Assembly: GCA_012798135.1 (NCBI GenBank)
Contig: JAAZNU010000050.1
Location: 8,268 to 72,267, forward strand
Source of the DNA: Veillonellaceae bacterium
GTDB lineage: Bacteria; Bacillota_C; Negativicutes; UBA1444
Direction: 5' to 3'
DNA length: 64,000 nucleotides
Part shown: positions 3,634-18,216 of the stretch, in pieces
How the letters are laid out: each line of letters opens with the position of its first letter
How positions within the stretch are numbered: the first letter of the stretch is position 1
Made by a program: the position numbers and the translations under genes
The notes under the pieces: model-generated
Told to the model about the DNA's origin: nothing
Databases searched by the model: none
Seen by the model: the letters and a program-made list of their open reading frames with translations, nothing else

Positions 3634-4104
3634 TTACTCTGTCCGGCCATGCCGCCAGCAATTCCGGCGGCAGAACTTTCCCTGATGGTCCTGACAACAA
3701 ACCACCTGGGTAGAGCCGCAGTCCGGGCAGGCATACTCGCCCTTTTTGATGGCTTCCATACGTTCGAAGCTCTCCAGCCAGACTTTGTTGCAGTCCAAGC
3801 ACCGTACGGAACAAATGTTGCGCGTGAACGTCCCGCCTTCGACCGTTATGGCCTTGCCGTTGATCAAACTATCGGCGATTTTTTCGCGGGCGGAACTTAG
3901 TATCCGCTGAAAGGTTGGCCGTGAAACCCCCATATTGCCGGCGCACTCTTCCTGTTCCAGTCCCTCTAGGTCTTTCAAGCGGATCGCTTCCAATTCTTCG
4001 ATCTTCAAAGAATTTTTGTCAATGACCGGTTCCTGATCCGAAGGAACGAAGTTCAACACGGAAGGTACATTTTCAATTCTGCGCCATTTTGTCGGTCTTG
4101 CCAA
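3634..4104 (-). CDS. DUF134 family DNA-binding protein, module A
   Basis: This 156-residue protein starts MARPTKWRR and has a helix-turn-helix-like segment near residues 45-75 (LEAIRLKDLEGLEQEECAGN, then MGVSRPTFQRIL). The C-terminal half is rich in CxxC pairs (CLDC, CPDC) and ends with further Cys/His, so it is probably metal-binding. DUF134 genes commonly neighbour Mrp/MinD-type ATPases; a second copy sits in module B. The start is TTG at 4104, with a GGAG about 11 nt upstream. It is likely the regulator of the ORP-type genes (inference). A weak promoter may lie in the 97-bp gap upstream. Confidence 0.82.
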   Translation of the reverse strand: MARPTKWRRIENVPSVLNFVPSDQEPVIDKNSLKIEELEAIRLKDLEGLEQEECAGNMGVSRPTFQRILSSAREKIADSLINGKAITVEGGTFTRNICSVRCLDCNKVWLESFERMEAIKKGEYACPDCGSTQVVCCQDHQGKFCRRNCWRHGRTE

Positions 4105-4201
4105 AACCTATCAGCTCCATTTTTCGATTCAAGCTTTCGCGTACATCAAACGCACTGTATATATTTTATCAGAACCGCACACCAAAAGTAATCGCACAGT
4201 G

Positions 4202-5056
4202 TTACGTCGATAAAATTTGCATTGTTTGACGGTAAATATATTTTACCGCCTCGCCGGCAGGGCACTCCACATCCACAATGCTGCGCCCCTGGTTGACGGT
4301 TGCCACGACCTTCGGATCAAACGGGATCTTGCCGACAAACGGCAATTTATTTTCCTGGCAATACCGTACAATATCTTCGGTTTTCGTCAAATTGGTATTG
4401 TATTTATTGACGCAAACCACAATCTGGGTTTGAAATCCCCGGGCGGTCTTAATAATGCGTTCCATATCGCTGATTCCGGAAATGGAAGGTTCCGCCACGA
4501 TCAACACCATATCTGCGCCGCTGAGCGAAGCGATCACCGGACAGCCGATCCCCGGCGATCCGTCAATAATGGCCAATTCTGCATCTTCAGCAACCGATCG
4601 CAGCTGATTTTTCACTTCCGTCACCAACATCCCGGACGTTCCGCTGCCCATGCGAAGCTGGGCTGTAGAAAATACCGCATCCCCAACATACAGCATTAAC
4701 TCGCCGGCAACTGCCGGCACAAGCTTTATTGCCCCCGCCGGGCAAAGTTTCTCACAAACGCCGCACCCCTCGCACGCATATCCGTCCACGGCATAATGGT
4801 TATCAATAGCGTCGAATCGGCAATTTTCGCGGCACAAGCCGCATTGTACACACTGATTCCTGTCGATTTCGGCTTTTGGCAGCCCAAAATAGTCGGACCG
4901 TCGGGGCGGAACGGTCTGGGTCATTACCAAGTGCAAATTGGGGGCATCAACATCGCAATCCGCATAGGCTCGCGCTCCGGACAACTTGATGAAGGCGCCG
5001 GCGACCGTTGTTTTTCCGGTTCCGCCTTTGCCGCTAAGAATGAGTAGTTGCCGCAT
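4202..5056 (-). CDS. MinD-type P-loop ATPase with two [4Fe-4S] clusters, module A copy 2
   Basis: The 284-residue cytosolic ATPase opens with a deviant Walker A (SGKGGTGKTT, residues 7-16). Two CX2CX2CX3C ferredoxin motifs are inserted near residues 65-110 (CVQCGLCRENC and CEGCGVCEKLC). Homologues are paired in ORP-type gene clusters. The start at 5056 is supported by AAGGAGG seven nt upstream; a longer upstream frame would lack a site. It overlaps the preceding gene by 23 bp. Cargo is unknown; handling of iron-sulfur or Mo-containing clusters together with the ORP protein is the working inference. Confidence 0.88.
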   Translation of the reverse strand: MRQLLILSGKGGTGKTTVAGAFIKLSGARAYADCDVDAPNLHLVMTQTVPPRRSDYFGLPKAEIDRNQCVQCGLCRENCRFDAIDNHYAVDGYACEGCGVCEKLCPAGAIKLVPAVAGELMLYVGDAVFSTAQLRMGSGTSGMLVTEVKNQLRSVAEDAELAIIDGSPGIGCPVIASLSGADMVLIVAEPSISGISDMERIIKTARGFQTQIVVCVNKYNTNLTKTEDIVRYCQENKLPFVGKIPFDPKVVATVNQGRSIVDVECPAGEAVKYIYRQTMQILST

Positions 5057-5906
5057 GCCGCGCCTCCTTGATGACGGAGTTGAGCAAACCCAAAAAAGAC
5101 TCCCAGTATTTCTTATGTTCTCTGACAAGTATTTGTCCGTTGGAATTCAACGTGCCAATTTCGGCGTCAAACGGAATCCTGTCTAAAATCTTCAGTTTCC
5201 GGTCCAGACAATACCGTTCCGCCGGATTCTCTCCTTCGAGGCACTTGTTCAGGACAACGCCGCAAGGTTTCCCAAATAGATTGACCAGTTCATGCACCAT
5301 CGCCAGATTATGCACGCCAAACGAAGTCGGCTCCGCCACCAGAATGCAATAGTCGGCATCTTTGATGCTTTCCATGACAATACAGGCGCTGCCTGGCGGG
5401 CAATCAATAACTGTCAACTTTTTTTCGTTGTCAACAATCTTTAAGAGTTCCTTAATAATCGGGATTCCAGACGTCTCTCCCGTATTCAGGCTTCCTGTCA
5501 ACACGGTAACATTCTCGGACAAACCCGCCTGAATTTTACCGATTGGTTTTTTGACCTCCGACAACGCTTTTTGCGGGCAAAACAAGACACAGCCGCCACA
5601 AGAATGGCACACCGTTTCAAACACTTTCCATTGGCCACAAACATAAACCAAGGCATTGAATTTGCAGAAATCGATGCACACTCGGCAACCATTACAGCGG
5701 TTTGCGTCAACAACCGGGATTTGCACGGCAATCTCCCGGCTTGTTGGGTTTACCGGCTTAAAATACAAATGCCCATTCGGCTCTTCGACATCGCAGTCAA
5801 CATATGTCGACTGCAATGCCGAAGCCGCCAGGTTCACCGACACGAGAGTCTTGCCCGTGCCCCCTTTGCCGCTAAGCACGGCAATTCTAAGATTATTTTC
5901 CGCCAT
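5034..5906 (-). CDS. MinD-type P-loop ATPase with two [4Fe-4S] clusters, module A copy 1
   Basis: This 290-residue protein is a paralogue of its downstream neighbour. It has SGKGGTGKT near residue 11 and two cluster motifs (CNGCRVCIDFC and CHSCGGCVLFC). The DCDVEEPN motif after the P-loop differs from the DCDVDAPN of its partner, and the same split is seen in module B, so the two ATPases of each module belong to two conserved subtypes. It overlaps the ORP gene upstream by 14 bp and the next gene by 23 bp, which points to co-translation. Confidence 0.88.
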   Translation of the reverse strand: MAENNLRIAVLSGKGGTGKTLVSVNLAASALQSTYVDCDVEEPNGHLYFKPVNPTSREIAVQIPVVDANRCNGCRVCIDFCKFNALVYVCGQWKVFETVCHSCGGCVLFCPQKALSEVKKPIGKIQAGLSENVTVLTGSLNTGETSGIPIIKELLKIVDNEKKLTVIDCPPGSACIVMESIKDADYCILVAEPTSFGVHNLAMVHELVNLFGKPCGVVLNKCLEGENPAERYCLDRKLKILDRIPFDAEIGTLNSNGQILVREHKKYWESFLGLLNSVIKEARHAATTHS

Positions 5907-6261
5907 GGTTGTGATACCCGGCATGAACATCTTCCAACAGTGACAGTTTTCCTTCTTCAAAAGCAAGAATACTATCCATAATTGACGTGGTCGTCGTCTT
6001 GTACATTTTCAAATTGGCTGCCTTTAATACCGATGCCGCATTTTCGCCGCACTGGGGAACCAAGACCGCTCCGGCGCCGCTATCCACAACGCTCTGAGCC
6101 GCTTTGATGCCAGCGCCGCCTTGGCTGAGCGCCGCGGTGTTATCGAAAAAAGCACTGGTTTTCGCGTCCGTATCATAAATCAAAAAATAAGGGGTCCGGC
6201 CAAATGATCCAGCAATCTCGGCCTCCATCGATTTGTTGGTGACAGGAATAGCGATTTTCAT
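5893..6261 (-). CDS. NifX/ORP (dinitrogenase iron-molybdenum cofactor) family protein, module A
   Basis: The 122-residue protein begins MKIAIPVTNKS, followed by a GSFGRTPYFLIYD segment, and matches the dinitrogenase iron-molybdenum cofactor domain shared by NifX, NafY and the Mo-Cu orange protein (ORP) of Desulfovibrio. The family carries metal-sulfur clusters. The ATG at 6261 is preferred because AGGAG lies 8 nt upstream; the GTG six bases earlier would be too close to it. It is the first of three overlapping genes with the MinD-type ATPases. Confidence 0.85.
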   Translation of the reverse strand: MKIAIPVTNKSMEAEIAGSFGRTPYFLIYDTDAKTSAFFDNTAALSQGGAGIKAAQSVVDSGAGAVLVPQCGENAASVLKAANLKMYKTTTTSIMDSILAFEEGKLSLLEDVHAGYHNHGGK

Positions 6262-6288
6262 GAACACAACTCCTTTTTTATTTGGATA

Positions 6289-6522
6289 TTACTCGCGCAC
6301 CATCAGCGATCCGCATTGAGGACATTGCACCGTAGTGCACGGTTTTCCGGGTTGGTGGGGAACTTTCTCGCCGCATTGCGGGCAAACGCAAAATCCGTTG
6401 GGAAACGGACCGGTCCTTCGGCCGACGCCTTGCAGCGAACCTCGCGTCCCGCCGCCTCTTCCCTGGCCGCGTCCCGTTCCACCGCCCGTTCCCACGGGCC
6501 CTGTTCCATCTCTTCCAGGCAT
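6289..6522 (-). CDS. Small glycine-rich zinc-ribbon protein (DUF5320-like N-terminus)
   Basis: This 77-residue protein starts MPGRDGTGPVGTGGGTGRG and ends in a zinc ribbon (CPQCG near residue 47 and again near 68). The N-terminus matches that of the DUF5320-like gene at 7606-7929, which lies on the other side of a radical SAM gene. GGGAGG seven nt upstream supports the start. Function is unknown. The shared N-terminal motif suggests a common recognition tag (inference). Confidence 0.75.
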   Translation of the reverse strand: MPGRDGTGPVGTGGGTGRGQGRGGGTRGSLQGVGRRTGPFPNGFCVCPQCGEKVPHQPGKPCTTVQCPQCGSLMVRE

Positions 6523-6585
6523 ACCGACACCTCCCCGATATTTGAAATGACTTGGGTAAGTCCTGCATAGGCGAGTCCTTAATAT

Positions 6586-7524
6586 CTATAACTGTTTACG
6601 ATAAAACTTTTTCCCCTCGTACCAAAATTCCAGCAACAATCCTTGCTTCACAAGTTCATCGACGCGGTTTTCCCCGTTCACCTGACTCTTTATCATTTCA
6701 TTGACAATTTCAGCCCGCAAAGGATGAACTGCCGTAATGCTCAACAGATCCTCAACAATATCGCCCGTGCAAAAGAACCCATCTTCTCGCTCGTCCCCGG
6801 TGATCCATTCCACCGTCACTCCCGCCGCCCGCCGAATCGCGCGAGCCGCCTCTAACAGTCGAGCATTCGGGGGACGCCGGACATTGCGTTCCGCGGGCGG
6901 TCTGGTCGGAACCAATAAATAAGCGATTTCGGGTCGGATCAACGCCAACAACTCAGCCAATTTCCCCAGCGCTTCCGTCGAATCATTCAACCCGTCCACG
7001 AGCATGGTCTCGGTAACCAGTTGGCCTTTATACTGCCGGGCGAAATCAACGACTCCGGCAAGAATTGTTGAAAGATCAAGTGCCCCATGGGGTCGATCCA
7101 CCGCCCGCCAAATGTTGGAATCAACCGCGTCGATTTTCACCGACACCCAATCGGCCTCCGCCAAATCCTTACGAACATCTTCGCGCCATAGCAAAGATGC
7201 ATTGGTGATAACCGCGATCTTTTGCCGAAGCAGCTTGAGCATGGCTATTTCCGTTCCCAAATTCAAATCCAGCGTAGGCTCCCCGTCGGGCACAAATGTC
7301 AGATAGTCGACCCCCTGCCCGTTCTTCATCAGCTGCTGCAACTTTTGCTCCACTTCGGAAAAGATGGCCTGGGGCGGATAAAACGCTTGCCGTTCAATCT
7401 GCATTTTATCCGTTCGACCCAGTTGACAATAACAGCAGGAATACGAGCAAACCTTGGGAGGAATATGATTGATGCCCAAACTTTGTCCCAACCTTCGAGA
7501 AGGTACCGGTCCATAAACAATCAT
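6586..7524 (-). CDS. Radical SAM protein, COG0731-like
   Basis: The 312-residue protein starts MIVYGPVPSRRLGQSLG and has the cluster motif CSYSCCYC (CX3CX2C) near residues 26-33, followed by CQLGRT. The layout resembles the wyosine-synthase-like radical SAM group (COG0731), common next to Fe-S ATPase clusters in anaerobes. The C-terminal 80 residues look like a winged-helix domain. A GGAG lies 10 nt before the ATG at 7524; an alternative ATG is at 7542. It sits between two small glycine-rich proteins in the module A operon. The substrate is unknown. Confidence 0.82.
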   Translation of the reverse strand: MIVYGPVPSRRLGQSLGINHIPPKVCSYSCCYCQLGRTDKMQIERQAFYPPQAIFSEVEQKLQQLMKNGQGVDYLTFVPDGEPTLDLNLGTEIAMLKLLRQKIAVITNASLLWREDVRKDLAEADWVSVKIDAVDSNIWRAVDRPHGALDLSTILAGVVDFARQYKGQLVTETMLVDGLNDSTEALGKLAELLALIRPEIAYLLVPTRPPAERNVRRPPNARLLEAARAIRRAAGVTVEWITGDEREDGFFCTGDIVEDLLSITAVHPLRAEIVNEMIKSQVNGENRVDELVKQGLLLEFWYEGKKFYRKQL

Positions 7525-7605
7525 TTTCTGTTCACTCCACATCGCCGAGCCTTGCTGGAGAACGGGCAAGGCAGGAAAACTCTTCCTGCCTCGTCCACTA
7601 CTATT

Positions 7606-7929
7606 TTATTCCTGGGTCGAAGAAAGTTGTTCCAGCCGCTGTTTTACTTGTTGCAATTGTGTTTCCAACGCGTTCATCTGGCGACTCAACAATTCTTTTT
7701 CAGTGGCGGTGGCAGCGCCGACTTCGCCATACTGTTGCGCCATAAAACGATTTCGCGCCTGCATTCCCACGCCACGCATTCCGCCCCCGAGGCCCCGGCG
7801 ACAACCAAAGCCGCCAAAACGGCCCGCTGCACTGGCTGCGCCCGGCATCCCGGCTCCCGCACAAAATCCCGCACCGCGACCGGTCATCGGTCCATTTCCC
7901 ATCGGCCCGGTTCCATCTCCTCTTGGCAT
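7606..7929 (-). CDS. DUF5320-like small glycine-rich protein with C-terminal coiled coil
   Basis: This 107-residue protein starts MPRGDGTGPMGNGPMTGRG and continues with a Gly/Arg/Ala-rich stretch holding two cysteines (GFCAGAG and FGCRRG). The last 40 residues form a heptad-like coiled coil (ATEKELLSRQMNALETQ). GAGGTG upstream supports the ATG at 7929. It is the first gene after a consensus promoter and heads the module A operon. Family members neighbour Mrp/NifX clusters in anaerobes; no function is known. Confidence 0.78.
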   Translation of the reverse strand: MPRGDGTGPMGNGPMTGRGAGFCAGAGMPGAASAAGRFGGFGCRRGLGGGMRGVGMQARNRFMAQQYGEVGAATATEKELLSRQMNALETQLQQVKQRLEQLSSTQE

Positions 7930-7990
7930 TTTTCTCACCTCTCAATTTTAATAGAGCTATACGCATCTCGACGTCGTTATTGTCATATGC

Positions 7991-8005
7991 TCATAATAAT
8001 CATAA
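7991..8005 (-). promoter_or_regulatory. Fur/PerR-like box over the module A promoter
   Basis: Minus strand TTATGATTATTATGA matches the PerR consensus at 12 of the 14 defined positions. It starts one base upstream of the -10, the same register as at 646-660 and 11303-11317. Confidence 0.5.
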
Positions 8006-8027
8006 TCAAGTTTTGGTCATATGTCAA
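7999..8027 (-). promoter_or_regulatory. Module A operon promoter
   Basis: Minus-strand TTGACA (8022-8027) and TATGAT (7999-8004) are separated by 17 bp, about 70 bp upstream of the DUF5320-like ATG. It probably drives the genes down to 4202. Confidence 0.8.
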
Positions 8028-8037
8028 TAACAGAAGC

Positions 8038-8075
8038 AAAAAAAGTTCGGCTGCATCTATACAACCGAACTTTCT
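8038..8075 (-). terminator. Terminator of the CoA-disulfide-reductase-like gene
   Basis: On the minus strand AAAGTTCGG (8065-8073) pairs with CCGAACTTT (8042-8050) and a T run follows. It lies downstream of the stop at 8114 and just upstream of the module A promoter. Confidence 0.8.
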
Positions 8076-8113
8076 TCATGATTACCTACAAGAGGGATCA
8101 ACTGCAGGCCAAA

Positions 8114-9799
8114 TCAGCCTTTTTCGCAGCAATAGGGCCAGGCAACGACTCCGCCTTCAATGACCTTCACATTATCGAAGCCTTCCCCCTCCAAGATGCA
8201 CTGCGCTTCGTAGCCGCGCACACTAATCTTGCAGAATGCCAGGATTTCGCCGTCTTTGCCCAATTCCTGCAAACGGCTGCGCAACTGTCCCAGCGGAATA
8301 TACTTGATATTGGGGCAATTGCCGATCCGAATCTGCTTGCATTCATCGGGGGTTCGAACATCCAGCAATACTGTTTTGGCATCCGCCATCTTCGCCTTGG
8401 CTTCGACGGGTGAAATCCCCTTGAATTTACCGGCCAATTTGTTCATCGCCGAAATAGCGGCGGCCGCCAGGTTGTCAATCGGCGAATTATACGGCGGTGC
8501 GTAGGACAAATCGATATCGAACAAGTCTTGGACCGTTCCGCCCAACGTCAATACCGTAGCCGCGACATCCACCCGTTTGGCGACTTCCCCTTCGCCTAGC
8601 GCTTGCATTCCCAAGACCTTGCGCGTGGGAACGTCCACAATCAGCTTGACCGTGATCAGTTTGGCCCCCGGCATGTAATGGGGCTTGTCGTGACCGGACA
8701 CCATAATTGTAACGTATTCATATCCCAAAGCCTTCGCATCTTTTTCACTCAGCCCGGTCTTGCCGACATTCAGAGCCATCACCTTCACGACGACCGTATT
8801 CAGGACGCCCCGGAAGACCTCGTCGCCGCCGCAGAGGTTGTCGCCGATTACCCGACCCTGTTTGTTGGCAGTCGAACCCATCGGTGCCAACACTTTGCGT
8901 CCGGAAATCATATTCGTGTTCTCCACGCAGTCACCACCGGCAAAAATGTTGGGATCGCTGGTTCGCAGCCGATCATCGACCTGAATTCCGCCGGTCCCTC
9001 CCAGCGCCAAGCCAGCCTCCTTCGCCAGTTCGACATTGGGTCGGGCGCCAAGCGCCAAAATGACCAGATCCGCCGGGATGCTCCGTTTTTCGGTTTCAAC
9101 GCTTTGCACCGCCGAGTCGCCCTTCAGCCCGGTGACCTTTTCGCCGGTTAACAATCGAATTCCCTGTTCTTCAGCGTACTTGCGCACCACTTCGGCAATC
9201 TCAAAATCCAAAAATGCCGGGAATATAGTCTCCTGCATTTCTACGACCGTCACCGCCAGGCCGGATTTCTTCAACGCTTCCGCCATCTCCATGCCCACAA
9301 GTCCGGCCCCAATAATTACCGCTTGTTTGTACTTACCGTCGCTTATCCCCTTTTTCACGGTTTCCGCATCATGGGGATGCCACATGGTAAATACATTGGT
9401 CAGCCCAATTCCCGGCAGTGGCGGCCGCACCGGCGAGGCTCCGGTGGCCAGTACCAATTTGTCATAAGGAAGCAGCGATTCTTCCTGCAAAACCAGGTTC
9501 TTCACCAGCACTGTTTTTGCGGCGCGGTCAATTTTCATGGCCATTGTTTGGGTCAACACATCGATTTTTTTGATATTCTTGAAATATTCCGGACTACGCA
9601 GCACGCCAACCGGAGTTTTTCGCAAATCATCAATATTGGCAACGTCGCCGGATACATAGTAGGGCATCCCGCAGGCGCCATAAGAAATGATATCACCGCG
9701 CTCCACCACCGTAATTTGAGCCTGAGGATCATTTCGGCGCGCCTTGGACGCCGCCTTCAAACCAGCCGCCACTCCACCGATCACCACTATTTTTTCCAT
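8114..9799 (-). CDS. CoA-disulfide reductase / NADH oxidase family flavoprotein fused to rhodanese
   Basis: The 561-residue protein has an N-terminal FAD dinucleotide fold (KIVVIGGVAAG, residues 3-13). The redox-active cysteine is in YGACGMPYY near residue 42. A second NAD(P)H fold (AVIIGAGLVGMEMAE) lies near 150 and the FAD motif GGDCVE near 280. The last 100 residues are a rhodanese domain with catalytic cysteine in AFCKISVRG. Such CDR-RHD fusions reduce CoA disulfides, persulfides or polysulfides with NAD(P)H. The ATG at 9799 has an AGGAGGG about 11 nt upstream. An ArsR-type regulator gene precedes it, with 94 bp between. Confidence 0.87.
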   Translation of the reverse strand: MEKIVVIGGVAAGLKAASKARRNDPQAQITVVERGDIISYGACGMPYYVSGDVANIDDLRKTPVGVLRSPEYFKNIKKIDVLTQTMAMKIDRAAKTVLVKNLVLQEESLLPYDKLVLATGASPVRPPLPGIGLTNVFTMWHPHDAETVKKGISDGKYKQAVIIGAGLVGMEMAEALKKSGLAVTVVEMQETIFPAFLDFEIAEVVRKYAEEQGIRLLTGEKVTGLKGDSAVQSVETEKRSIPADLVILALGARPNVELAKEAGLALGGTGGIQVDDRLRTSDPNIFAGGDCVENTNMISGRKVLAPMGSTANKQGRVIGDNLCGGDEVFRGVLNTVVVKVMALNVGKTGLSEKDAKALGYEYVTIMVSGHDKPHYMPGAKLITVKLIVDVPTRKVLGMQALGEGEVAKRVDVAATVLTLGGTVQDLFDIDLSYAPPYNSPIDNLAAAAISAMNKLAGKFKGISPVEAKAKMADAKTVLLDVRTPDECKQIRIGNCPNIKYIPLGQLRSRLQELGKDGEILAFCKISVRGYEAQCILEGEGFDNVKVIEGGVVAWPYCCEKG

Positions 9800-9893
9800 C
9801 TGATCATCCGCCCTCCTATTTTCTATCTTTACTGATTCACGCGTCACAGTCGACCCTCCGCTCCAAAGTCCCGCGCGTAAGTCGATTGAGAGT

Positions 9894-10208
9894 CTACGAT
9901 TCCTCTTCCGAAAAATAGCCATTCACGAGCGATTGCACAATCTGGCGTTTTTTCTCGTCATACAGTGAATAATAAATATTGGTCCCTTCGCGCTTGCCGA
10001 CTATGATTTTCGCCGCCTTCAGTTTTGCTAAATGCTGCGAAACCGTGGATTGCGCTTCGCCAAGGCAGCTTTGCATTTCGGTCACATTCGATTGTTGTTT
10101 TTCACACAAAGTCTTGGCGATGCACAGCCTTTGCGGATGAGCCAAGGCTTTAAGAATATCTGCCAATTCATTGAATGCTTCCGGATCTGTACGGTAGAAA
10201 TGTTGCAC
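9894..10208 (-). CDS. ArsR/SmtB family transcriptional regulator
   Basis: The 104-residue protein has a winged helix-turn-helix (LKALAHPQRLCIAKTL, then AQSTVSQHLAKLKAA). GTG at 10208 is chosen because GGGAGAGG precedes it by seven nt; the upstream ATG at 10241 has no ribosome site and lies inside the operator. A 24-bp palindrome lies in its leader, typical of autorepression. Candidate sensing cysteines are in RLCIAKTLC and QSCLG. With the CDR-rhodanese downstream, it may sense persulfide or metal (inference). Confidence 0.88.
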   Translation of the reverse strand: MQHFYRTDPEAFNELADILKALAHPQRLCIAKTLCEKQQSNVTEMQSCLGEAQSTVSQHLAKLKAAKIIVGKREGTNIYYSLYDEKKRQIVQSLVNGYFSEEES

Positions 10209-10231
10209 TACGTTACCTCTCCCGCCAATTA

Positions 10232-10255
10232 ATCGTAACATTTAAATATTGCGAT
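10232..10255. promoter_or_regulatory. ArsR-type operator palindrome
   Basis: ATCGTAACATT (10232-10242) and AATATTGCGAT (10245-10255) form an inverted repeat with 9 of 11 positions matched. It lies just downstream of the promoter of the ArsR-type gene, as for autoregulated ArsR operons. Confidence 0.7.
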
Positions 10256-10269
10256 GTTTGTATGTTTTG

Positions 10270-10297
10270 ATTATAACACGCTGCGATATTTTTTCAA
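10270..10297 (-). promoter_or_regulatory. Promoter of the ArsR/CDR-rhodanese operon
   Basis: Minus-strand TTGAAA (10292-10297) and TATAAT (10270-10275) are spaced by 16 bp. Transcription would begin at or beside the operator. Confidence 0.75.
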
Positions 10298-10397
10298 GCG
10301 ATTCTCCGAACAAAAATAAACTATTCACAATCTTTACGTCTGCTTCCCGGTACAACATTCCTGCGAGGCACCCAAATACGAACCGGGCCAGCCCCCC

Positions 10398-10437
10398 AAA
10401 AAAGCGACAGGCTGTCTTTCTTTCGACATCCTGCCGC
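10398..10437 (-). terminator. Terminator of the Sec-peroxiredoxin gene
   Basis: GCGGCAGGATGTC and GACAGCCTGTCGC pair on the minus strand with two mismatches and are followed by six T. It lies 27 bp after the stop codon at 10464. Confidence 0.85.
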
Positions 10438-10463
10438 TCATTCCCATTGAGGGTTCGGTTCAT

Positions 10464-11186
10464 CTATTTTTCGAACGCTTTATCCGGTTGCCACACTTTC
10501 CATACTTTGCCGACCAGATCCGGACTTGGCTGCAGCGTCGGTTTGCCAGGGGTCCAACCAGCCGGCGTCGCTTCGCCGGTAGCCCGCACATGTTGGAATG
10601 CCTGCGCCTGCCGGATCAATTCCGCAACGTTTCGTCCCACCGGGGGAGTCATAACCTCCATCGCCTGAATGACTCCATCCGGATCAATCAGGAAACGACC
10701 CCGAATGTCAACCCCGGCTTCCGCATCGTACACACCGTAAATCTCACCAATCCGGCCTCCCTGATCTGACAGCATGGGGAAGGGAACGCCGCCGGGAACC
10801 ATCTTGGAAAGCTCTTCTTCTTGCCAGATCTTATGGCTGAAGCGGCTATCAACGCTTACTGCCAACACCTGAACGTTCAGATTTTGCAATTCTTGATTTT
10901 TGACGGCGACCGCCGACAATTCGGTCGGTCAGACAAAGGTAAAATCACCGGGATAGAAGCAGAGAGAAACCCATTTCCCTTTGTAATCGGATAGTTTCAC
11001 CGTCGTGAAGCCGCCGTTGACAAATGCATTGGCTTCGAAATCCGGAGCCGGTTTTCCCACTTTGGCCAACATCTTGTTTTCCTCCTTCGCCGCATGAAGA
11101 ATCGTTGCTTCGTTTGGTGTATTCGTGGATTCGCTGATCGTCGGACCTTTGGCAGGTTTTACGCACGAAATCTTTTCCTCTGCCAC
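10464..11186 (-). CDS. Selenocysteine-containing peroxiredoxin (AhpC/Prx family)
   Basis: An in-frame TGA at 10931-10929 splits an otherwise continuous 240-residue peroxiredoxin. The product reads FTFV-U-PTE, with Sec86 exactly at the peroxidatic cysteine of the FTFVCPTE motif. A selenocysteine-insertion hairpin follows the TGA. The start is GTG at 11186 with AGGAGGTGA five nt upstream. Residues 1-38 are an N-terminal extension before [12 protein letters not shown]. The resolving cysteine of typical 2-Cys enzymes is absent: the usual CPAGW reads TPAGW. Only Cys8 and Cys76 remain, so a different thiol partner is likely. The enzyme would reduce peroxides. A Fur/PerR-like box overlaps its promoter. 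Confidence 0.93.
10900..10919 (-). promoter_or_regulatory. Bacterial SECIS hairpin of the peroxiredoxin
   Basis: Starting 9 nt after the TGA, the mRNA folds TTG-T-CGGC-GGTC-GCCG-T-CAA. The apical loop GGUC begins 17 nt after the stop codon, nearly the same position as GGUCU in the formate dehydrogenase gene of this window. An alternative hairpin directly at the TGA (10908-10930) overlaps it. Confidence 0.8.
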
Positions 11187-11339: not shown

Positions 11340-11366
11340 TAGCCCTTCAACTAAGCAAGCGATTCA

Positions 11367-12011
11367 CTATTTCGCGGATTCTTGCTCCAGCATCTTTCGG
11401 GCTCTGATCACCGCAAAGACGCCTTCGCCGATTCCAGGCTTTATTTCTTGAGCAACATTTTCAAACGTAAAGATGGTTTGTCGTTCCGCATCCACGCAGA
11501 AACCTGCCCGAGTCAGAAGTTCTTTGATTTCGGCGGCGCTATGAAAATGAGCCTGCCGATAAAATAAACTGGACTGCTTTTTCTGTTCATATTCTTTTCC
11601 CAGCCGGGTTGCTGCGTCAATAAGCGCGATAATAAACCAGCCCCGAGGAACCAAGATGCGGTAGGCTTCCCGAAAAGACCGCGCGACATCCGTCAAAAAG
11701 CAATCCACTGTGATCATTACCGCAAAATCAAACATTGCCGTCTTAAACGGCAGACGTTCGGCCACGCCGTCAAAAACATGCACGCCCCTTGATTGGGCTT
11801 TTTTACGCATGGCCTCGGAAGGTTCGACCCCGTATTTGATTCCCAGCGCCGCGGCGAACAGTCCCGATCCGACGCCGATTTCCAAGCCTATGCCGGACTG
11901 CGGCAAGACTTCTTTAATTGCGGCAATCTCCGTCTTGAGCAAACAGGCATGTTCCTGAAACCATTGTTCATATTCAGTCACATGCGTCCCAAAAACGTCT
12001 TCCCCGGTCAT
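11367..12011 (-). CDS. Class I SAM-dependent methyltransferase
   Basis: This 214-residue protein has the SAM-binding motif LEIGVGSGLFA near residues 43-53. A second motif (DGVAERLPF) lies near 80 and the post-I acidic region is present. GGAGG five nt upstream supports the ATG at 12011. It is the last gene of the module B operon, 40 bp after the DUF1847 gene. The acceptor is unknown; its neighbours suggest metal or thiol chemistry (inference). Confidence 0.8.
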   Translation of the reverse strand: MTGEDVFGTHVTEYEQWFQEHACLLKTEIAAIKEVLPQSGIGLEIGVGSGLFAAALGIKYGVEPSEAMRKKAQSRGVHVFDGVAERLPFKTAMFDFAVMITVDCFLTDVARSFREAYRILVPRGWFIIALIDAATRLGKEYEQKKQSSLFYRQAHFHSAAEIKELLTRAGFCVDAERQTIFTFENVAQEIKPGIGEGVFAVIRARKMLEQESAK

Positions 12012-12051
12012 ATGCGCCTCCGAGTTTCGTCTTAGCGTCGCAAAACTATCT

Positions 12052-12756
12052 CTATTCCACAATGTCGACTTTCTTCAGGCGATCCTGTTTAAAACGTTCA
12101 CAGTACGAATCGTAGGTATAAATGGCGGCCAGCGGATTGTGGCCCATCGCTCGGTCTTTCACCGCAAACACCGTAACCATGGCTTTGCAGTATTTGATGA
12201 ACATCGAGTCATGACCGACACATAATCCCAGCAAAATATTGAAATCTGTCTCGGCCGTATTGAGGACTTCCGCCTGCGCAATCGGGTTGCACATGGACTC
12301 CGCTTCACCAACCTGCACTCGTTCATCCGGCCCAATTTCCAGCAGTTCTTTGTCTATTCCGCCCACTTTGCACATGACGGAAACCACATCGAACCCGTGA
12401 TCCTCCAAAATCTTGCAAAAGACATTGGCTTCTTTGTGCAAGCCGCCGCAAAAAGCAACTCCCAATTTCTTATAGCCCATTTTTCGGGAGAATTCAATGA
12501 TTTCCTGAACACGCGGCTTCACCGGAAATTTGTAATGGGGCGTAGCCGCGCGGTCGATGTAGCACTCCGCTTCCTGTATGGAGGCATTGCGGGCAAACTG
12601 GTGGATATCCGGTTTCGCATACTCCGCCACTGCTTTTTCAATCGCTTCCGGATACAATTTGGTGGAACAGAATACAGGAGCGGTTCCTTCTTCCTTGTTC
12701 CGGCAGTACCGTGTCTTAACCATACACAGGGCGCATTTTCCTTCATTTTGCGGCAT
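12052..12756 (-). CDS. DUF1847 family metal-binding protein
   Basis: The 234-residue protein is cysteine-rich: CALC near residue 8, then RYC, FCS, FCGG, VMC, SMC, GLC and KYC. It matches the layout of DUF1847 proteins of anaerobes (CAxC start, GVAFCGGLHKEA, LCVGHDSMF). Function is unknown; the cysteines suggest metal or cluster binding. GAGGAG precedes the ATG. It lies directly downstream of the CGGC-domain gene. Confidence 0.8.
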   Translation of the reverse strand: MPQNEGKCALCMVKTRYCRNKEEGTAPVFCSTKLYPEAIEKAVAEYAKPDIHQFARNASIQEAECYIDRAATPHYKFPVKPRVQEIIEFSRKMGYKKLGVAFCGGLHKEANVFCKILEDHGFDVVSVMCKVGGIDKELLEIGPDERVQVGEAESMCNPIAQAEVLNTAETDFNILLGLCVGHDSMFIKYCKAMVTVFAVKDRAMGHNPLAAIYTYDSYCERFKQDRLKKVDIVE

Positions 12757-12787
12757 TCAGCATTCTCCTCTCAATCATCCTATTAAA

Positions 12788-13240
12788 TCAGTCATACGCC
12801 AAACGGGTTTTTTCGTCGGCGAGCAAGTTTTCCAAATAGTCGAGGCAATCGGGCGGGGTCCAGGTTTCCAGCTCAGCATGGACCTTGCGGTACTTTTCCG
12901 GAATCGGATGCGTACCGACTACAACCTCCATGCCAAATTTTTTCGTGATAAGTTCGCGGAAATACTCAATATGCGGGCAAGGCGGGTAGCCGACAACCAA
13001 GCCGGTTGCCAGGTGAATGACTTGGGCCCCGTTCTTTTTCATTTCTTCGGGAGCGTATTCTATATTTCCTCCCGGGCATCCGCCGCAAGTAGTGAAGCCA
13101 ACGATTTCCACTTGTTTCCCCTGGTAACGGGAAAAGCCGCCTTCCCGGGCGCTCACCGACCGGAAGCATTTGCCGCCGGCACAGGTTTTATAACGGTCGC
13201 AAATCACAATCCCGATTTTGATCGTATCGCCTTCCTGCAT
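12788..13240 (-). CDS. CGGC domain-containing protein
   Basis: This 150-residue protein contains TTCGGCPGG near residues 51-59, the signature of CGGC-domain proteins, plus YKTCAGGKCFRS near 17-28. The domain is predicted to bind metal and is typical of anaerobes and methanogens. GGAGGTG upstream supports the ATG. It sits between the split permease and the DUF1847 gene, suggesting a metal or metalloid transport set (inference). Confidence 0.82.
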   Translation of the reverse strand: MQEGDTIKIGIVICDRYKTCAGGKCFRSVSAREGGFSRYQGKQVEIVGFTTCGGCPGGNIEYAPEEMKKNGAQVIHLATGLVVGYPPCPHIEYFRELITKKFGMEVVVGTHPIPEKYRKVHAELETWTPPDCLDYLENLLADEKTRLAYD

Positions 13241-13260
13241 TTGTTGACACCTCCAATAAA

Positions 13261-13815
13261 TTATGCTTGGTGTTTGTTATAAATCTCCTGTTTTTCCCTC
13301 TCCGGCACCCAACGATCAATCAGGAACGCCATTACTACGATTCCCACCAGACTGCAGACCCAGCGGGTCACTGAAAAAGTCAAGCCCAGGTACTGCGTTT
13401 CGAACAGAAACATGGGGATCTTCAATGTCGACCAGGCACCCAAAAACAGCATGACATTATAAAGGCTGGCCCCTTTTTTCATCATCACGGCAGCCACCGG
13501 GAACGCGCCATATAAGGGACCGGCGGCTGCCGCCCCCAAAAAGATTGCCAGCGTCATTCCCCGCAAACCCGATCCGCCGCCGAGATGGCTGATGACGACT
13601 TCCCGAGGTACCCAGACATCCAACAGCCCCAGGATGATAAATACCGGCGGCAAAAAGCTCAACATTTCAACAAAACCATTTGTCGTCTGAAGCACAATCT
13701 GCCGCCCAAATTCCGGAGCCCACACAAACGCCGCACTATCAGCCACCAACGCCATGATCACCCATTTGTAGCGCTGCAACGTCGTCAAATTACCCCGCCA
13801 CCTTTGCCAAAACAT
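13261..13815 (-). CDS. Permease, C-terminal half of an ArsP/DUF318-type transporter
   Basis: About 184 residues with four to five membrane segments. It contains GGGSGLRGMTLAIFLGAAAAGPLYGAFPVAAVMMKKG (given here only as a region near residues 80-115), the conserved core of DUF318 permeases. The start is uncertain: ATG at 13815 has no clear ribosome site, and a TTG about 30 bases downstream, after GGTGGCGGGG, could be used. It overlaps the preceding gene, which encodes the other half. Confidence 0.75.
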   Translation of the reverse strand: MFWQRWRGNLTTLQRYKWVIMALVADSAAFVWAPEFGRQIVLQTTNGFVEMLSFLPPVFIILGLLDVWVPREVVISHLGGGSGLRGMTLAIFLGAAAAGPLYGAFPVAAVMMKKGASLYNVMLFLGAWSTLKIPMFLFETQYLGLTFSVTRWVCSLVGIVVMAFLIDRWVPEREKQEIYNKHQA

Positions 13816-14269
13816 AAGCAACGGCGAAGGAATACAACAAACTCATCCCATTACGCAGCAACATCGTTCTCCGGTTAAAAAACTGCGCCTCCATCGGCGC
13901 GGTCACTACCCCAACCATCATCAATGTCGAAACAAAAATTGCCACCTGCATCATTCCAGCGCCCATTTCCAGCACCGCGCGTGCCAGCGGAAAGGCAATG
14001 AAGCCCGGGATTAAAGTAATCGAACCGAGAATTGCCGCTATGCAGAGCCCTGCCCAACCGGACTGTGCTCCCAAAAGTTCTGAAACCGCCGATGGCGATA
14101 GAAGGGCCAAGCTAGCGCCGATCAGCAACAGTACAAACGCGAAGGACGGCAAGATATTCTCAAAACTCTTCCAGGCCTTTTTCAACGCCTGTCGCGTTTT
14201 TTGCCGATTCTTTGTATAAGACCAAGCAACGCCTGCCGCCGCCAGGCTATAAAACAGAACAATCTCCAC
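13790..14269 (-). CDS. Permease, N-terminal half of an ArsP/DUF318-type transporter
   Basis: The 159-residue protein has four predicted membrane segments and a basic loop (KNRQKTRQALKKAWKSF) near residues 20-36. It has GSITLIPGFIAFPLA, another DUF318 core segment. In single-chain DUF318 permeases the two halves are fused; here they are two overlapping genes. The start is GTG at 14269 after GGGGGA. It may export a metal, metalloid or thiol compound (inference from family and neighbours). Confidence 0.75.
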   Translation of the reverse strand: MEIVLFYSLAAAGVAWSYTKNRQKTRQALKKAWKSFENILPSFAFVLLLIGASLALLSPSAVSELLGAQSGWAGLCIAAILGSITLIPGFIAFPLARAVLEMGAGMMQVAIFVSTLMMVGVVTAPMEAQFFNRRTMLLRNGMSLLYSFAVAYVLAKVAG

Positions 14270-14371
14270 ACTATCCCCCGTTCTCTGTCCCCAAAAGCAC
14301 AGTCAAATCAGAACGATATTCACAACATACACAGCAAGTTGTTGTTACGCATTGTGCAAGGACGTAAAAGG

Positions 14372-14412
14372 AATTCAGGCGGAAATTCGCCAACCGAAAA
14401 TCCGCCTGAATT
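14372..14412 (-). terminator. Hairpin after the Mrp-ORP fusion gene
   Basis: AATTCAGGCGGA (14372-14383) and TCCGCCTGAATT (14401-14412) pair perfectly. The trailing T run is short (CCTTTTAC), so this may be a partial terminator that lowers expression of the permease genes. Confidence 0.6.
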
Positions 14413-14421
14413 ATTCCTGTC

Positions 14422-15603
14422 TCAGTGTCCGCAGTGATGATCCTCGTCACCGTCATGGTTGCAGGCATTACCGCCAACCGTCAAATTACGTGCCAGATAG
14501 CGGTTGATGATTTCCAGTGGTTTATCCGGTTGGACGCCGCAAATAACGGCGACGCCGCGGGACTGCAAAATTTCCTGCGCCCGTTCGCCCATACCGCCGA
14601 CCAGTACGACAGTCGCCCCCTGCTGAGCCAGCCAGTTCGGAATCACACCCGGTTCATGGGGCGGCGGCACTAAATTTTCCGTTTTCGTCACCTTGCCATT
14701 TTCGACCGTTGCGAACAAAAACTCTTCACAATGCCCAAAATGGGAGCTCAACATACCGCCGACCACCGGAACTGCAACTTTTTCCATCTTTATTTCCCCT
14801 TTCGTTTCTGCCGCGCCGGATAAAATATTGTCGACAATTTCCGTCATGGCAGCTTTCATGGCTGCGGAACGTTCCAACGCGGAGACGCCATCGTCGCCGG
14901 CAACGACCACTGATGGATCGATCGGCATCCGGCCAAGGAACGGCACATTGAATTCGCGGGCCAGCGCTTCGCCGCCGCCGGATTTGAAAATATCGACGTG
15001 ATGCCCGCATTGCGGACAAACATAGCCGCTCATGTTTTCAATGATCCCGACAATATCCATGCCGACCTGACGGCAGAAATTGAGCGATTTGCGAACATCC
15101 GCCAGCGCCACGCCCTGCGGAGTGGTTACTACGATAGCCCCGCAATCGGGAATAAACTGGGCGATGGTCAACGGCTCGTCGCCGGTACCGGGAGGACTGT
15201 CAATCACAAGGACATCCAGCGCTCCCCAATCGACATCGGTCATAAATTGCTTGATCACGCCGATTTTCAAAGGGCCGCGCCAAATCACCGCGTCATCTTG
15301 ATGCTGAAGAAACCCCTGCATCGAAATAATTTTCAAATTTTCCGAATAGGCATAGGGTTGGATTTTTCCATCCACCGTGCCCAGCGGCATGCCGGTCAGC
15401 CCCATGATCCGGGCGATACTCGGCCCATGTACGTCAATATCCATTAAGCCGGTTTGCAACCCTTTCGCCGCGAAGGAAGCGGCGATTCCTGCCGCCATCG
15501 TACTTTTGCCGACGCCGCCTTTGCCGCTCATGACCATAAATACCTGTTTCACGCCCTTGAGAAACTCCTGAATCGCCGGATCTTTCGGTACTCCCTGTTC
15601 CAT
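14422..15603 (-). CDS. Mrp/NBP35-type ATPase fused to a NifX/ORP domain
   Basis: This 393-residue protein has two parts. Residues 1 to about 260 are an Mrp ATPase with SGKGGVGKST near residue 26, and CPQCG in the Fe-S carrier region (MSGYVCPQCGHH). Residues about 275-375 are a NifX/ORP domain (MEKVAVPVVGGMLSSHFG). The tail is His/Cys-rich (CNHDGDEDHHCGH). Desulfovibrio ORP clusters contain a similar Mrp-ORP fusion. The ATG at 15603 is favoured by GGGG ten nt upstream. The stand-alone ORP gene ends 5 bp before it. Confidence 0.88.
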   Translation of the reverse strand: MEQGVPKDPAIQEFLKGVKQVFMVMSGKGGVGKSTMAAGIAASFAAKGLQTGLMDIDVHGPSIARIMGLTGMPLGTVDGKIQPYAYSENLKIISMQGFLQHQDDAVIWRGPLKIGVIKQFMTDVDWGALDVLVIDSPPGTGDEPLTIAQFIPDCGAIVVTTPQGVALADVRKSLNFCRQVGMDIVGIIENMSGYVCPQCGHHVDIFKSGGGEALAREFNVPFLGRMPIDPSVVVAGDDGVSALERSAAMKAAMTEIVDNILSGAAETKGEIKMEKVAVPVVGGMLSSHFGHCEEFLFATVENGKVTKTENLVPPPHEPGVIPNWLAQQGATVVLVGGMGERAQEILQSRGVAVICGVQPDKPLEIINRYLARNLTVGGNACNHDGDEDHHCGH

Positions 15604-15608
15604 TTTTC

Positions 15609-15968
15609 TCATTCCCCTTTTTTTTCGTTTGGTGCGAAATACTCGTTATAGTGTCCTTCCAGGAAGGCCATCATTATATCCTGAACTTTTCCCGGTTCGA
15701 CACAATAAATCTTGATCTGGTTGGCCCGCAAAACCTGAAGCGCCTTCGGTCCGACAAAGCCGCTGATCAGTGCGTTGACGCCCAACTTCTCGACAAATTG
15801 CGCCGTCTGGATGCCGGCGCCATGTTCCAGCCCCGCGTTGGCAAAATTTTCGTGCGCCGTCCAGGTTTTCCCCTGTGTGTCAAACACTAAAAAATAAGGT
15901 GCCCGGCCAAATCGGCCGTCCATCATTTCTTGGTAATTGTTGGCGGTTGCCGTAATTGCGACTCGCAT
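15609..15968 (-). CDS. NifX/ORP family protein, module B
   Basis: The 119-residue protein begins MRVAITATANNYQE and has GRFGRAPYFLVFD, aligned to GSFGRTPYFLIYD of module A. It is a single dinitrogenase iron-molybdenum cofactor domain. GAGGGGG upstream supports the ATG at 15968. It likely carries a metal-sulfur cluster loaded or moved by the neighbouring ATPases (inference). Confidence 0.85.
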   Translation of the reverse strand: MRVAITATANNYQEMMDGRFGRAPYFLVFDTQGKTWTAHENFANAGLEHGAGIQTAQFVEKLGVNALISGFVGPKALQVLRANQIKIYCVEPGKVQDIMMAFLEGHYNEYFAPNEKKGE

Positions 15969-15988
15969 TCTGAACCCCCTCTTTCTTT

Positions 15989-16876
15989 TCAAGATTTCGC
16001 CGTGTGCTCCAGCCGGTAGGCAATATTTTCCCATAAACGGTTCAAGGCTTCCCCAATCAGGCGATCTTCCGTCGGCACAACCGTACGACCTTCCTGCAGC
16101 GCCTTGCGGAACTCTTCACGGTAGGGAATCTCTCCCGCTACCATGATGCTGTTGGCGACGCACCAGTTTCGAATCTGCTGGCGCATTCCCTCGTGCAGAT
16201 CGCTTTTATTGAGGCAAACCAACAACGGCAGCCGAAAATGCCGGGTCAGTTCATACAACCGTTGCAGATCATGCAGCGCGGAAATGGTCGGTTCCACTAC
16301 GGCCAACGCCAAGGTGGCGCCGGTCAGGGCGGCTATGGCAGGACAACCGATACCGGGCGGGCCATCCGTCAACATCAGGGAGCCCGCCTGCTGGCATATC
16401 AAAGAACGGGCGACTTCCTTGACCTTGGACACCAATTTCCCTGAGTTTTCGATGGCAACGCCTAGGTTGGCGTTGACCAGCAGCCCCCGCGAGGTCTGCC
16501 AGACTTCCCAAGCTCCCGCTTCCTTGCGCCCCATCGTAATGGCGCCGGTCGGGCAAAAATCGGCGCACACACCGCAGCCTTCGCATAACAGCGGCGCGGC
16601 CAGAACTCCGTTTTCGATTGCACCGAATCGACAAAGCAACCCGCATTTATTGCAGCCGATACAGGCTTCCCGATTGATTTTGACTTCCCACCCCGACTCG
16701 AAACTGCCGGAATCGACCTTCTCCCCGTCAAGAATCAATTGCAGATTGGCGGCATCGACATCGCAGTCGGCCATCACTTTATTGGGGATAATCGCGGCCA
16801 GCGCGCCCGTGATGCTGGTTTTCCCGGTGCCGCCCTTTCCGCTGACGACTACGATTTCCTTTATCGGGACGGCCAT
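15989..16876 (-). CDS. MinD-type P-loop ATPase with two [4Fe-4S] clusters, module B copy 2
   Basis: The 295-residue protein has SGKGGTGKTS near residue 11, DCDVDAAN, and the cluster motifs CIGCNKCGLLC and CEGCGVCADFC. It is the counterpart of the 4202-5056 gene. GGAGG ten nt upstream supports the ATG at 16876. It overlaps the upstream ATPase gene by 16 bp. Confidence 0.88.
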   Translation of the reverse strand: MAVPIKEIVVVSGKGGTGKTSITGALAAIIPNKVMADCDVDAANLQLILDGEKVDSGSFESGWEVKINREACIGCNKCGLLCRFGAIENGVLAAPLLCEGCGVCADFCPTGAITMGRKEAGAWEVWQTSRGLLVNANLGVAIENSGKLVSKVKEVARSLICQQAGSLMLTDGPPGIGCPAIAALTGATLALAVVEPTISALHDLQRLYELTRHFRLPLLVCLNKSDLHEGMRQQIRNWCVANSIMVAGEIPYREEFRKALQEGRTVVPTEDRLIGEALNRLWENIAYRLEHTAKS

Positions 16877-17709
16877 GTACGTTGCACCTCCCGCCAAATA
16901 TTTCTTCCCTGCACAATGGCCTGCACCGGCAACCGTCCACCGGCATACGCCGCCGCCCACTCCCGGCTATACGGAATTTCGGCCAGCAGGGGAATGTTTC
17001 TTTCTTGGCACAGAGCCCGTATGCGGTCCTGCCAGGGACCGGCGTCACTTTTATTGATCACGACGCCGCGGCGATCGTGACCGATTTCCGCCAAAACATC
17101 CACGGCCAGAACCAAGTCGTGATAACCGAAGGCATTCGGTTCTGTCACCAATAGGCAGACATCGCTGTCATAAACGGCTAACGCCATCAAGCACGAGGTT
17201 CCCGGCGGACAATCCAGCACCACATTTCCCGTCGACGGGGCTTTGGCCTTGAGCGCCTTGATCAGCGGACCACCGGCCGGCAAACCGGGATCCAGTTTCC
17301 CGGCGATCCAATGCACCCGCTGGTACTCTTCGGTTCCTGCGCCCTGTTCAATGACGCCGATCCGCCGGGGGACCTCCCGGATCGCCTGCCGGGTGCACGC
17401 CAGGCTGCAACCCCCGCAGCTATGACAAAGCTCGGGGAAAAGCATCGCCTTGCCCCCGGCCACTACCAAGGCCGAAAAGCGGCAAACCTTGGCACAATCG
17501 TCACAGCCATCACATCGCTCGACAACGATATCAGGAATTTGAACGGTTACTGTTTCAGTCGTCACGCAGTCCGGCTTAACAAACAGATGGCAATTCGGTT
17601 CCTCAACATCACAATCGATTAACATCGCCTGCTCGGCCCCTGCCGACAGCATCAGGGACACTGTTGTTTTCCCGGTTCCTCCCTTGCCGCTCGCCACACT
17701 GACCCGCAT
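16861..17709 (-). CDS. MinD-type P-loop ATPase with two [4Fe-4S] clusters, module B copy 1
   Basis: This 282-residue protein begins directly with MRVSVASGKGGTGKTT and has DCDVEEPN, CDGCDDCAKVC and CHSCGGCSLAC. It is the counterpart of the 5034-5906 gene. GGAGGTG precedes the ATG. A GAAATATATTTC palindrome lies 18 bp upstream, in the gap after the DUF134 gene. Confidence 0.88.
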   Translation of the reverse strand: MRVSVASGKGGTGKTTVSLMLSAGAEQAMLIDCDVEEPNCHLFVKPDCVTTETVTVQIPDIVVERCDGCDDCAKVCRFSALVVAGGKAMLFPELCHSCGGCSLACTRQAIREVPRRIGVIEQGAGTEEYQRVHWIAGKLDPGLPAGGPLIKALKAKAPSTGNVVLDCPPGTSCLMALAVYDSDVCLLVTEPNAFGYHDLVLAVDVLAEIGHDRRGVVINKSDAGPWQDRIRALCQERNIPLLAEIPYSREWAAAYAGGRLPVQAIVQGRNIWREVQRTWPSR

Positions 17710-17726
17710 CGGCCCACCTCCATATC

Positions 17727-17738
17727 GAAATATATTTC
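17727..17738. promoter_or_regulatory. Palindrome GAAATATATTTC upstream of the module B ATPases
   Basis: A perfect 12-bp palindrome in the 51-bp gap between the DUF134 gene and the first ATPase gene. A near copy is at 18217-18228, upstream of the DUF134 gene. Possible DUF134 operator (inference). Confidence 0.5.
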
Positions 17739-17760
17739 ATTACTGACAGAAAAAAACTTG

Positions 17761-18183
17761 TCAACGAAGTCGGGCCGCTGCCTGCGCCCCGCATTGCGGA
17801 CATAATAGCTGGCACCCCCGTCCACCCTGGCCGGCCAGCACTTCCCATTCGTGACCGCAGGCGCCGCAACGGAACCGCCGACTGCCGTTGCAACATTTCA
17901 TCCGGTAGTTGCCGCCTTCTATCCGCAAGGAGCGACCCTCCCAAAGAAAGCGGCCGATTTTCAGGTGAGCCTTTTCCAGAATCCGATGGAAAGTCGGGCG
18001 AGACACACCCATCAGTTCCGCGGCCGGTCCCTGCTCCATCCCTTCCACGTCGGCCAAACGAATGGCCTCCATTTCTTCGATGGTGATCACCATTTCATCC
18101 ACGGCGAATATAGGAATGCCTACCGGTTTGAACTGGCCGACCGGTGGCAATTGTTCCACATGTCGATCCTTAATGGGTCGCAT
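17761..18183 (-). CDS. DUF134 family DNA-binding protein, module B
   Basis: This 140-residue protein has IEEMEAIRLADVEGMEQ and MGVSRPTFHRILEKA near residues 35-70, matching the module A copy. CxxC pairs (CGAC, CPQC) form a C-terminal metal site. It lies first in the module B operon behind a TTGACT-17-TATAAT promoter. The start region is duplicated (see 18180-18211); the inner ATG at 18183 is in frame. It probably autoregulates and controls the ATPase/ORP genes (inference). Confidence 0.83.
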   Translation of the reverse strand: MRPIKDRHVEQLPPVGQFKPVGIPIFAVDEMVITIEEMEAIRLADVEGMEQGPAAELMGVSRPTFHRILEKAHLKIGRFLWEGRSLRIEGGNYRMKCCNGSRRFRCGACGHEWEVLAGQGGRGCQLLCPQCGAQAAARLR

Positions 18184-18211: not shown

Positions 18212-18216
18212 ATTAT

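Follow-up and report, generated by a model that had tools for sequence, protein, structure and literature searches.

Which regulator controls genes that probably assemble and transport metal-sulfur clusters, in an anaerobic bacterium that carries two sets of them, is the question raised by a window of 64,000 nucleotides (the whole stretch of DNA analyzed here) from a Veillonellaceae bacterium, contig JAAZNU010000050.1. The window holds two gene modules, A and B, and in both of them Pfam identifies a DUF134 protein, a Nitro_FeMo-Co domain of the NifX/orange protein (ORP) type, and ferredoxin-type MinD ATPases. DUF134 (UPF0251, PF02001) is a family whose members are already named 'predicted DNA-binding protein (UPF0251 family)' in the sources. 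An earlier note on this DNA had suggested that DUF134 seems to do here what a sigma-54 activator does for the orange protein genes of Desulfovibrio. Our comparison makes it probable that DUF134 proteins are instead autoregulated repressors at sigma-70 promoters of the modules. All module genes and promoters discussed lie on the minus strand (Table 1).

Candidate operators at the promoters

A palindrome, TGAAATATATTTCA (the alpha site), recurs upstream of A-type DUF134 genes. Of 32 upstream regions with sites of at most two mismatches, 29 have the alpha site starting 5-7 bp downstream of the best -10 box, and 28 of the 32 promoters have no more than two mismatches in the 12 positions of the sigma-70 hexamers, against none of 32 shuffled upstream regions. 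Near-matches in the window at the same threshold are confined to the two promoters of module A, one at each; 0.23 would be expected in the window, and a count of two was reached by 3 of 100 shuffles. Both positions are conserved in L001, the largely collinear locus of a close relative, the Negativicutes metagenome-assembled genome (MAG) UBA1444, whose A-type DUF134 protein is 93 percent identical. The 22 genomes chosen for A-type loci (94.9 Mb) contain 36 exact alpha sites, compared to three sites for a scrambled palindrome and one for the reversed pattern. An A-type DUF134 gene lies no more than 2 kb away from 25 of the 36 and no more than 11 kb away from 28. The loci examined contain 41 distinct exact sites; 31 are found within 450 bp upstream of a gene of the module or of the cluster in the wider window (a NifU-like gene in three cases) and 10 are not.

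Some observations adjoin these patterns. A perfect 17-bp palindrome-like sequence close to the alpha core, GGTAAAATATATTTACC, lies unexplained within the 3' end of the MinD2 gene of module B (4231-4247, minus strand; 0.09 expected). The closest other A-type DUF134 gene, in a Sporomusaceae MAG (L002, 10001-14333), has genes for two membrane proteins, for DUF1847 and for a coenzyme A-disulfide-reductase-like protein behind it, with no MinD or NifX. Two different DUF134 genes stand in tandem ahead of a single A-like module in L083 and L084.

The comparison for module B started from the DUF134 operator of L003 and L004, two genes from other phyla, with consensus TTATGARCATATGYTCATAA. Searching the window with up to four mismatches recovered what Table 1 lists as site 2 of the promoter before a NifU-like gene (two mismatches) and site 2 before module B (three), against an average of 0.03 strand hits over 60 Markov sequences. 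In addition, the -35 box of each promoter bears TTGACATATG, 34 bp ahead of the second core, and this exact ten-mer occurs twice in the window (682 and 8027) against 0.087 expected. A strict second CATATG is present only in the promoter at 8027; that of the NifU-like gene has CATAAG. In 20 loci related to module B, with MinD1 proteins 59-67 percent identical, TTGACATATG was found upstream of the module in 17, the other three ending at a contig edge near NifX. Counting both strands, these 20 loci hold 32 copies against 0.55 expected, and another 14 copies occur in 990 kb of other loci.

The complete double-operator pattern (TTGACATATG, 24-36 bases, CATATG) was sought in 26 chosen genomes (65.3 Mb) and defined 33 distinct promoters in 24 of them, the reversed pattern giving none in all 26. 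For 21 of these promoters, a B-like MinD1 gene is no more than 5 kb away. For the 25 promoters with a locus, the longest open reading frame (ORF) within 420 bp downstream matched DUF5320, DUF134, NifX, NifU or Mrp in 22 and none of these in three, the DUF5320 matches being weak (24-51 bits) and to Gly-rich proteins. Membership of the NifU-like gene in the predicted module B regulon is supported because in L243 a NifU-like gene is under a double-operator promoter and in L235 NifU lies inside module B.

Two side observations concern the same pattern. The plus-strand sequence TTGACAAATGCCCAAAA at 698-707 of the window, on the likely -35 box of an nrdD-like gene at 795, is one base off TTGACATATG and marks a possible extra target. 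In L233 and L237 a double-operator promoter divergent from module B faces an Fe-S (iron-sulfur) protein that is HdrD/DsrK-like, as judged by eye from its translation.

DUF134 proteins as probable readers of the sites

Comparative DNA evidence suggests that DUF134 regulates these genes. Perfect palindromes of at least 14 bp occur upstream of 33 of 90 DUF134 genes, compared to 29 of 1065 other long ORFs (not all of which are real genes), and an alpha, beta or gamma site lies upstream of 67 of the 90, the three patterns having been derived from these very loci. In a DUF134 tree of 151 rows, built from a short alignment, the three labels require three changes. There are 14 exact beta sites, spread over 12 of 22 genomes and for the most part preceding lone DUF134 genes, and none for the reversed control. 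These lone genes have no conserved neighbor (the most widely shared family occurs at 6 of 22 loci and its offsets vary), and that they keep the site nonetheless points to autoregulation. A structural model of the module A protein resembles sigma region 4 (5fgm, 0.8 A over 50 residues) and the DNA-binding domain of DeoR on its operator (7bhy, 0.7 A over 40 residues, 38 percent identity). An invariant CxxC pair lies at C106/C109 and C128/C131. Finally, the four long DUF134 proteins tested were all fused to a Nitro_FeMo-Co domain, and 14 of 138 proteins have a NifX match.

Several results weigh against DUF134 as the repressor of these promoters or bear on its link to the sites. In a pattern search of upstream regions, 23 of the 90 DUF134 genes had no listed operator, and the genomes of the alpha and double-operator scans were selected for carrying the genes. 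Eight of the 36 exact alpha sites lie away from A-type DUF134 genes: those in G088 and G041:C38 precede MinD1 and DUF1847/NifX genes, those in L137 and L138 fall inside an ORF start, and the others have no clear link. DUF134 was absent from the retrieved stretch in 4 of the 17 relatives of module B with TTGACATATG. Within the window, TGAGCATATGCTCA with three mismatches is not enriched (4 against 2.03), and counts of 4 against 1.20 for TGACATATGTCA (two mismatches) and 7 against 2.92 for TTGACATATG (one mismatch) belong on the same side; beta and short gamma patterns show little or no enrichment when the window is considered by itself. No Foldseek match of the module A model reaches an E-value of 0.001, and the matches that top the list by E-value are MCM chains of low probability. 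A simple code linking recognition helix to operator (H to alpha, Q to beta) held for 24 of 26 and 28 of 30 cases among the first 94 proteins but failed in 44 new ones: none of three T[FL]H proteins had an alpha site, two of them having TTGACATATGTTCA, and 5 of 20 T[FL]Q proteins had a beta site, with none for the other 15. We retained it only as a link at the level of clades.

A further difficulty concerns module B. Its own DUF134 protein has the helix SRPTFQR, outside the TTV group, whereas all 13 relatives that stand beside a double operator have helices of the A[RSA]TVQ type; consequently, it may not read the module B sites. Its own upstream region contains no listed site. The sites of module B and of the NifU-like gene could then be read by a third, TTV-type DUF134 protein encoded elsewhere in the genome, leaving the one at 3634-4104 with other targets, and the sister genome G001 does have a TTV-type DUF134 gene preceded by a double operator. 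Site 2 of both window promoters, however, has a beta-like half (TTATGAGCAT and TTATGAACAT), as found with TFQ helices, and we hold the third protein to be a considerable but lesser possibility. The module B protein may thus be a swapped regulator with re-tuned sites, or a third DUF134 protein may read them.

That DUF134 is an activator doing the job of DVU2106 seems unlikely. DUF134 does adjoin ORP-type genes, as the Desulfovibrio activator does (PMC3897727), and that report and a second one (PMC4641369) describe divergent orp operons that require sigma-54, DVU2106 and IHF. Module A differs in being one operon with DUF134 first and promoters of sigma-70 type. DVU2106 likewise binds palindromes and represses its own gene, which would suit an activator as well. 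Activators, however, rarely sit at the start or just past the -10 box, where the alpha sites are found, and the double operator covers the -35 box and the start; the closeness of the alpha promoters to the sigma-70 consensus argues in the same direction. A sigma-54 route for control of the modules was rejected, the sites being at or below chance in the window (27 against 35.4 expected, and none in 17724-17764 or 18213-18263); the ORF lists of the window were the only place in which an activator gene was sought. Of the proposal that DUF134 replaces the sigma-54 activator, the regulatory role is what stands, on comparative DNA evidence, while the promoter type, the repressor-like site positions and the lack of sigma-54 enrichment speak against activation.

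Equally doubtful is a reading in which some other regulator recognizes the palindromes, or they form hairpins in the 5' untranslated RNA, with DUF134 a mere neighbor. Binding of DUF134 to the sites is predicted from sequence comparison, which leaves room for this, and the single site in L004 may have another identity, since GAACATATGTTC resembles the Gram-positive LexA box. Yet the type of site tracks the DUF134 clade, and lone DUF134 genes carry sites while sharing no neighbor. One of the module B sites, moreover, spans the -35 box and cannot be part of the RNA made from that promoter.

Gene content and ancestry of the two modules

Both regulators exceed the Pfam gathering cut-off for DUF134 (27 bits). 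The families that the earlier note had listed for each module (two MinD-type ferredoxin ATPases, NifX/ORP and DUF134) are borne out by Pfam, which finds Fer4 stretches in all four MinD/CbiA-type ATPases, and the quoted motifs are present in the translations. That inventory had left out MrpORP, DUF5320 and the radical SAM gene, and the modules are not the two full copies it took them for. Module A runs from DUF134 through MinD1, MinD2 and NifX to MrpORP, while module B runs from DUF5320 through the radical SAM gene, a small Gly-rich/Zn-ribbon protein, NifX, MinD1 and MinD2 to DUF134, with no MrpORP among its ORFs and Pfam matches (3634-7938). The gap between them (7938 to 14422) is about 6.5 kb, less than the 10 kb given before.

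Table 1. Positions in the window of the module genes and their predicted promoters
Feature	Position	Strand	Evidence or remark
NifU/IscU-like scaffold, predicted module B regulon member	181..564	-	NifU_N 133.3 bits; TIGR03419 156 bits, below cut-off 187.9
NifU promoter, same double-operator layout as module B: site 1 666-685, site 2 632-651	632..685	-	
DUF134 regulator of module B, its last gene (156 aa; helix SRPTFQR)	3634..4104	-	Pfam 88.3 bits
Module B MinD2 (DCDVDAPN)	4202..5056	-	Pfam
Module B MinD1 (DCDVEEPN)	5034..5906	-	Pfam; homologue search and tree
Module B NifX	5893..6267	-	Nitro_FeMo-Co 70.6 bits; top solved-structure match MTH1175 1eo1
Small Gly/Arg-rich protein, C-terminal zinc ribbon	6289..6522	-	Weak Pfam Zn ribbon only; start DUF5320-like by eye
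Radical SAM protein, start codon unsettled	6586..7539	-	PF04055 49.9 bits
DUF5320 protein, first gene past module B promoter	7606..7938	-	PF17253 91 bits
Module B double-operator promoter: site 1 on -35 (8011-8030), -10 TATGAT, site 2 at start (7977-7996)	7977..8030	-	
MrpORP, Mrp/NBP35 ATPase fused to Nitro_FeMo-Co	14422..15612	-	NF041136 493.6 bits, cut-off 450; Pfam
Module A NifX/ORP protein	15609..15968	-	Nitro_FeMo-Co 70.6 bits; top solved-structure match D. gigas ORP 2wfb
Module A MinD2 (DCDVDAAN), ferredoxin-type MinD ATPase	15989..16876	-	Pfam
Module A MinD1 (DCDVEEPN), ferredoxin-type MinD ATPase	16861..17709	-	Pfam
Module A promoter 2, ahead of MinD1: alpha site with 1 mismatch at 17726-17739; possible -35/-10, spacer 16, weak -10	17724..17764	-	Same place in L001
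DUF134 regulator of module A (140 aa; helix SRPTFHR; C-terminal stretch with two CxxC)	17761..18183	-	PF02001 72.9 bits; structural model, mean pLDDT (predicted local distance difference test) 86.5
Module A promoter 1: -35 TTGACT, spacer 17, -10 TATAAT (18235-18263); alpha site 18216-18229, 5 bp after -10	18213..18263	-	Same place in L001

The likeness to Desulfovibrio asserted by the earlier note holds for module A and less so for module B. Like the ORP cluster of Desulfovibrio vulgaris (DVU2103-2109), module A combines a pair of ferredoxin-type MinD proteins with a one-domain relative of ORP and with MrpORP, and the closest solved structure of the module A NifX protein is the D. gigas ORP (2wfb, 4.6e-17). 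The assignment of MrpORP rests on a match above the curated cut-off and on deviant Walker A, CPQC, HFGHCE and PPPHEPG stretches in the translation; the four-cysteine N-terminal stretch described for Desulfovibrio MrpORP (PMC6345978) is absent from the N-terminus here. For module B NifX the nearest solved structure is MTH1175 (1eo1, 1.3e-17), of the same fold family, and ORP comes third (8.8e-9). On sequence comparison, the label 'ORP-type' fits module B less well than module A. The report on Desulfovibrio MrpORP places IssA in the NifX/MTH1175-like family (PMC6345978). An IssA-like storage role for module B NifX was considered and rejected, as the protein ends in EVHAGYHNHGGK and lacks the long cationic tail described for IssA.

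Quick trees were built from 27 MinD1 and 25 MinD2 proteins, with only three B rows, flagged long branches, and a long L004 row of uncertain place. In both, the MinD proteins of module B cluster with L061 and L066, separate from 24 and 22 A rows with a split support of 100, and those of module A group with the sister locus L001 among the A rows. The homologue search for module B MinD1 accepted 7765 of 7999 scored candidates, and its relatives are widespread, with matches at 1e-60 in 84 of 199 genomes of the phylum. The modules did not arise by local duplication, given that their ATPases sit in separate clades, and probably represent two old lineages, distinct from each other, of a set that handles metalloclusters. 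A recent tandem duplication, favored by the closeness of the modules and their shared core families, was rejected on these trees, with the spread of MinD1 relatives as a further argument; its combination with the specialized cargo suggested by the earlier note is most improbable.

Other genes of the region deserve mention. Downstream of MrpORP lie two ArsP_1-like permease halves, CGGC, DUF1847 and a methyltransferase gene. The permease halves overlap (13261-14269, minus strand), as they do in L001, and L265 has a similar pair that shares a double-operator region. Two likely selenoproteins are encoded elsewhere in the window: a peroxiredoxin (AhpC/TSA; 10464-11213, minus strand) with an in-frame TGA in PGDFTFV-TGA-PTE, likely a selenocysteine enzyme, and a formate dehydrogenase-like protein (61008-63686, plus strand) interrupted by an in-frame TGA, the reading there being CART-U-HSPTV.

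A proposed repressor circuit for metallocluster handling

The comparison supports the gene content of the modules, their separate ancestry, the operators, their fixed place after the -10 box, their specificity and their link to the genes; DNA binding, repression, the signal and the identity of the cluster are what we infer from it. Repression with autoregulation appears most likely: the promoters seem to need no activator to be complete, and the sites overlap their transcription starts and, in module B, the -35 box as well. In the circuit we propose, each set would consist of a pair of Fe-S-binding MinD ATPases and a NifX/ORP carrier, with MrpORP in module A and a NifU scaffold linked to module B. 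Operators for a DUF134 protein would lie in the start region of a sigma-70 promoter, and also on the -35 box in module B. A symmetric DUF134 oligomer would contact them through its helix-turn-helix, similar to sigma region 4, and when bound would block RNA polymerase, repressing both its own gene and the module. The block may be lifted by a metal, cluster or redox signal, sensed either by the cysteines of the C-terminal stretch or through a NifX domain, which is fused to DUF134 in some relatives. Cluster supply would be a sensible signal, since MrpORP hands Fe-S clusters to Orp3 and Orp4 according to the MrpORP literature (PMC6345978), and the DUF134-NifX fusions suggest that the NifX fold helps in sensing.

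We extend this reading tentatively. The NifX/ORP fold might be the sensor, fused or in trans, of DUF134 repressors of metallocluster status, so that the orange protein family would in part report cluster supply, and two circuits with different operators might keep an ORP/MrpORP regulon apart from a NifU/MinD/NifX regulon in one cell.

DUF134 is common in anaerobes, being present in 150 of 300 genomes of the class and 114 of 159 of the phylum. A literature search by family name or motif, covering mostly titles and the beginnings of abstracts, returned no operator, target or regulon for DUF134/UPF0251. The present comparison proposes operators, a promoter geometry and targets for the family, and a defined operator with a fixed promoter geometry makes the predicted role of DUF134 readily testable. 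By tying ORP, MinD ATPases, MrpORP, DUF5320 and NifU scaffolds into predicted regulons, these patterns offer a handle on what the orange protein sets do.

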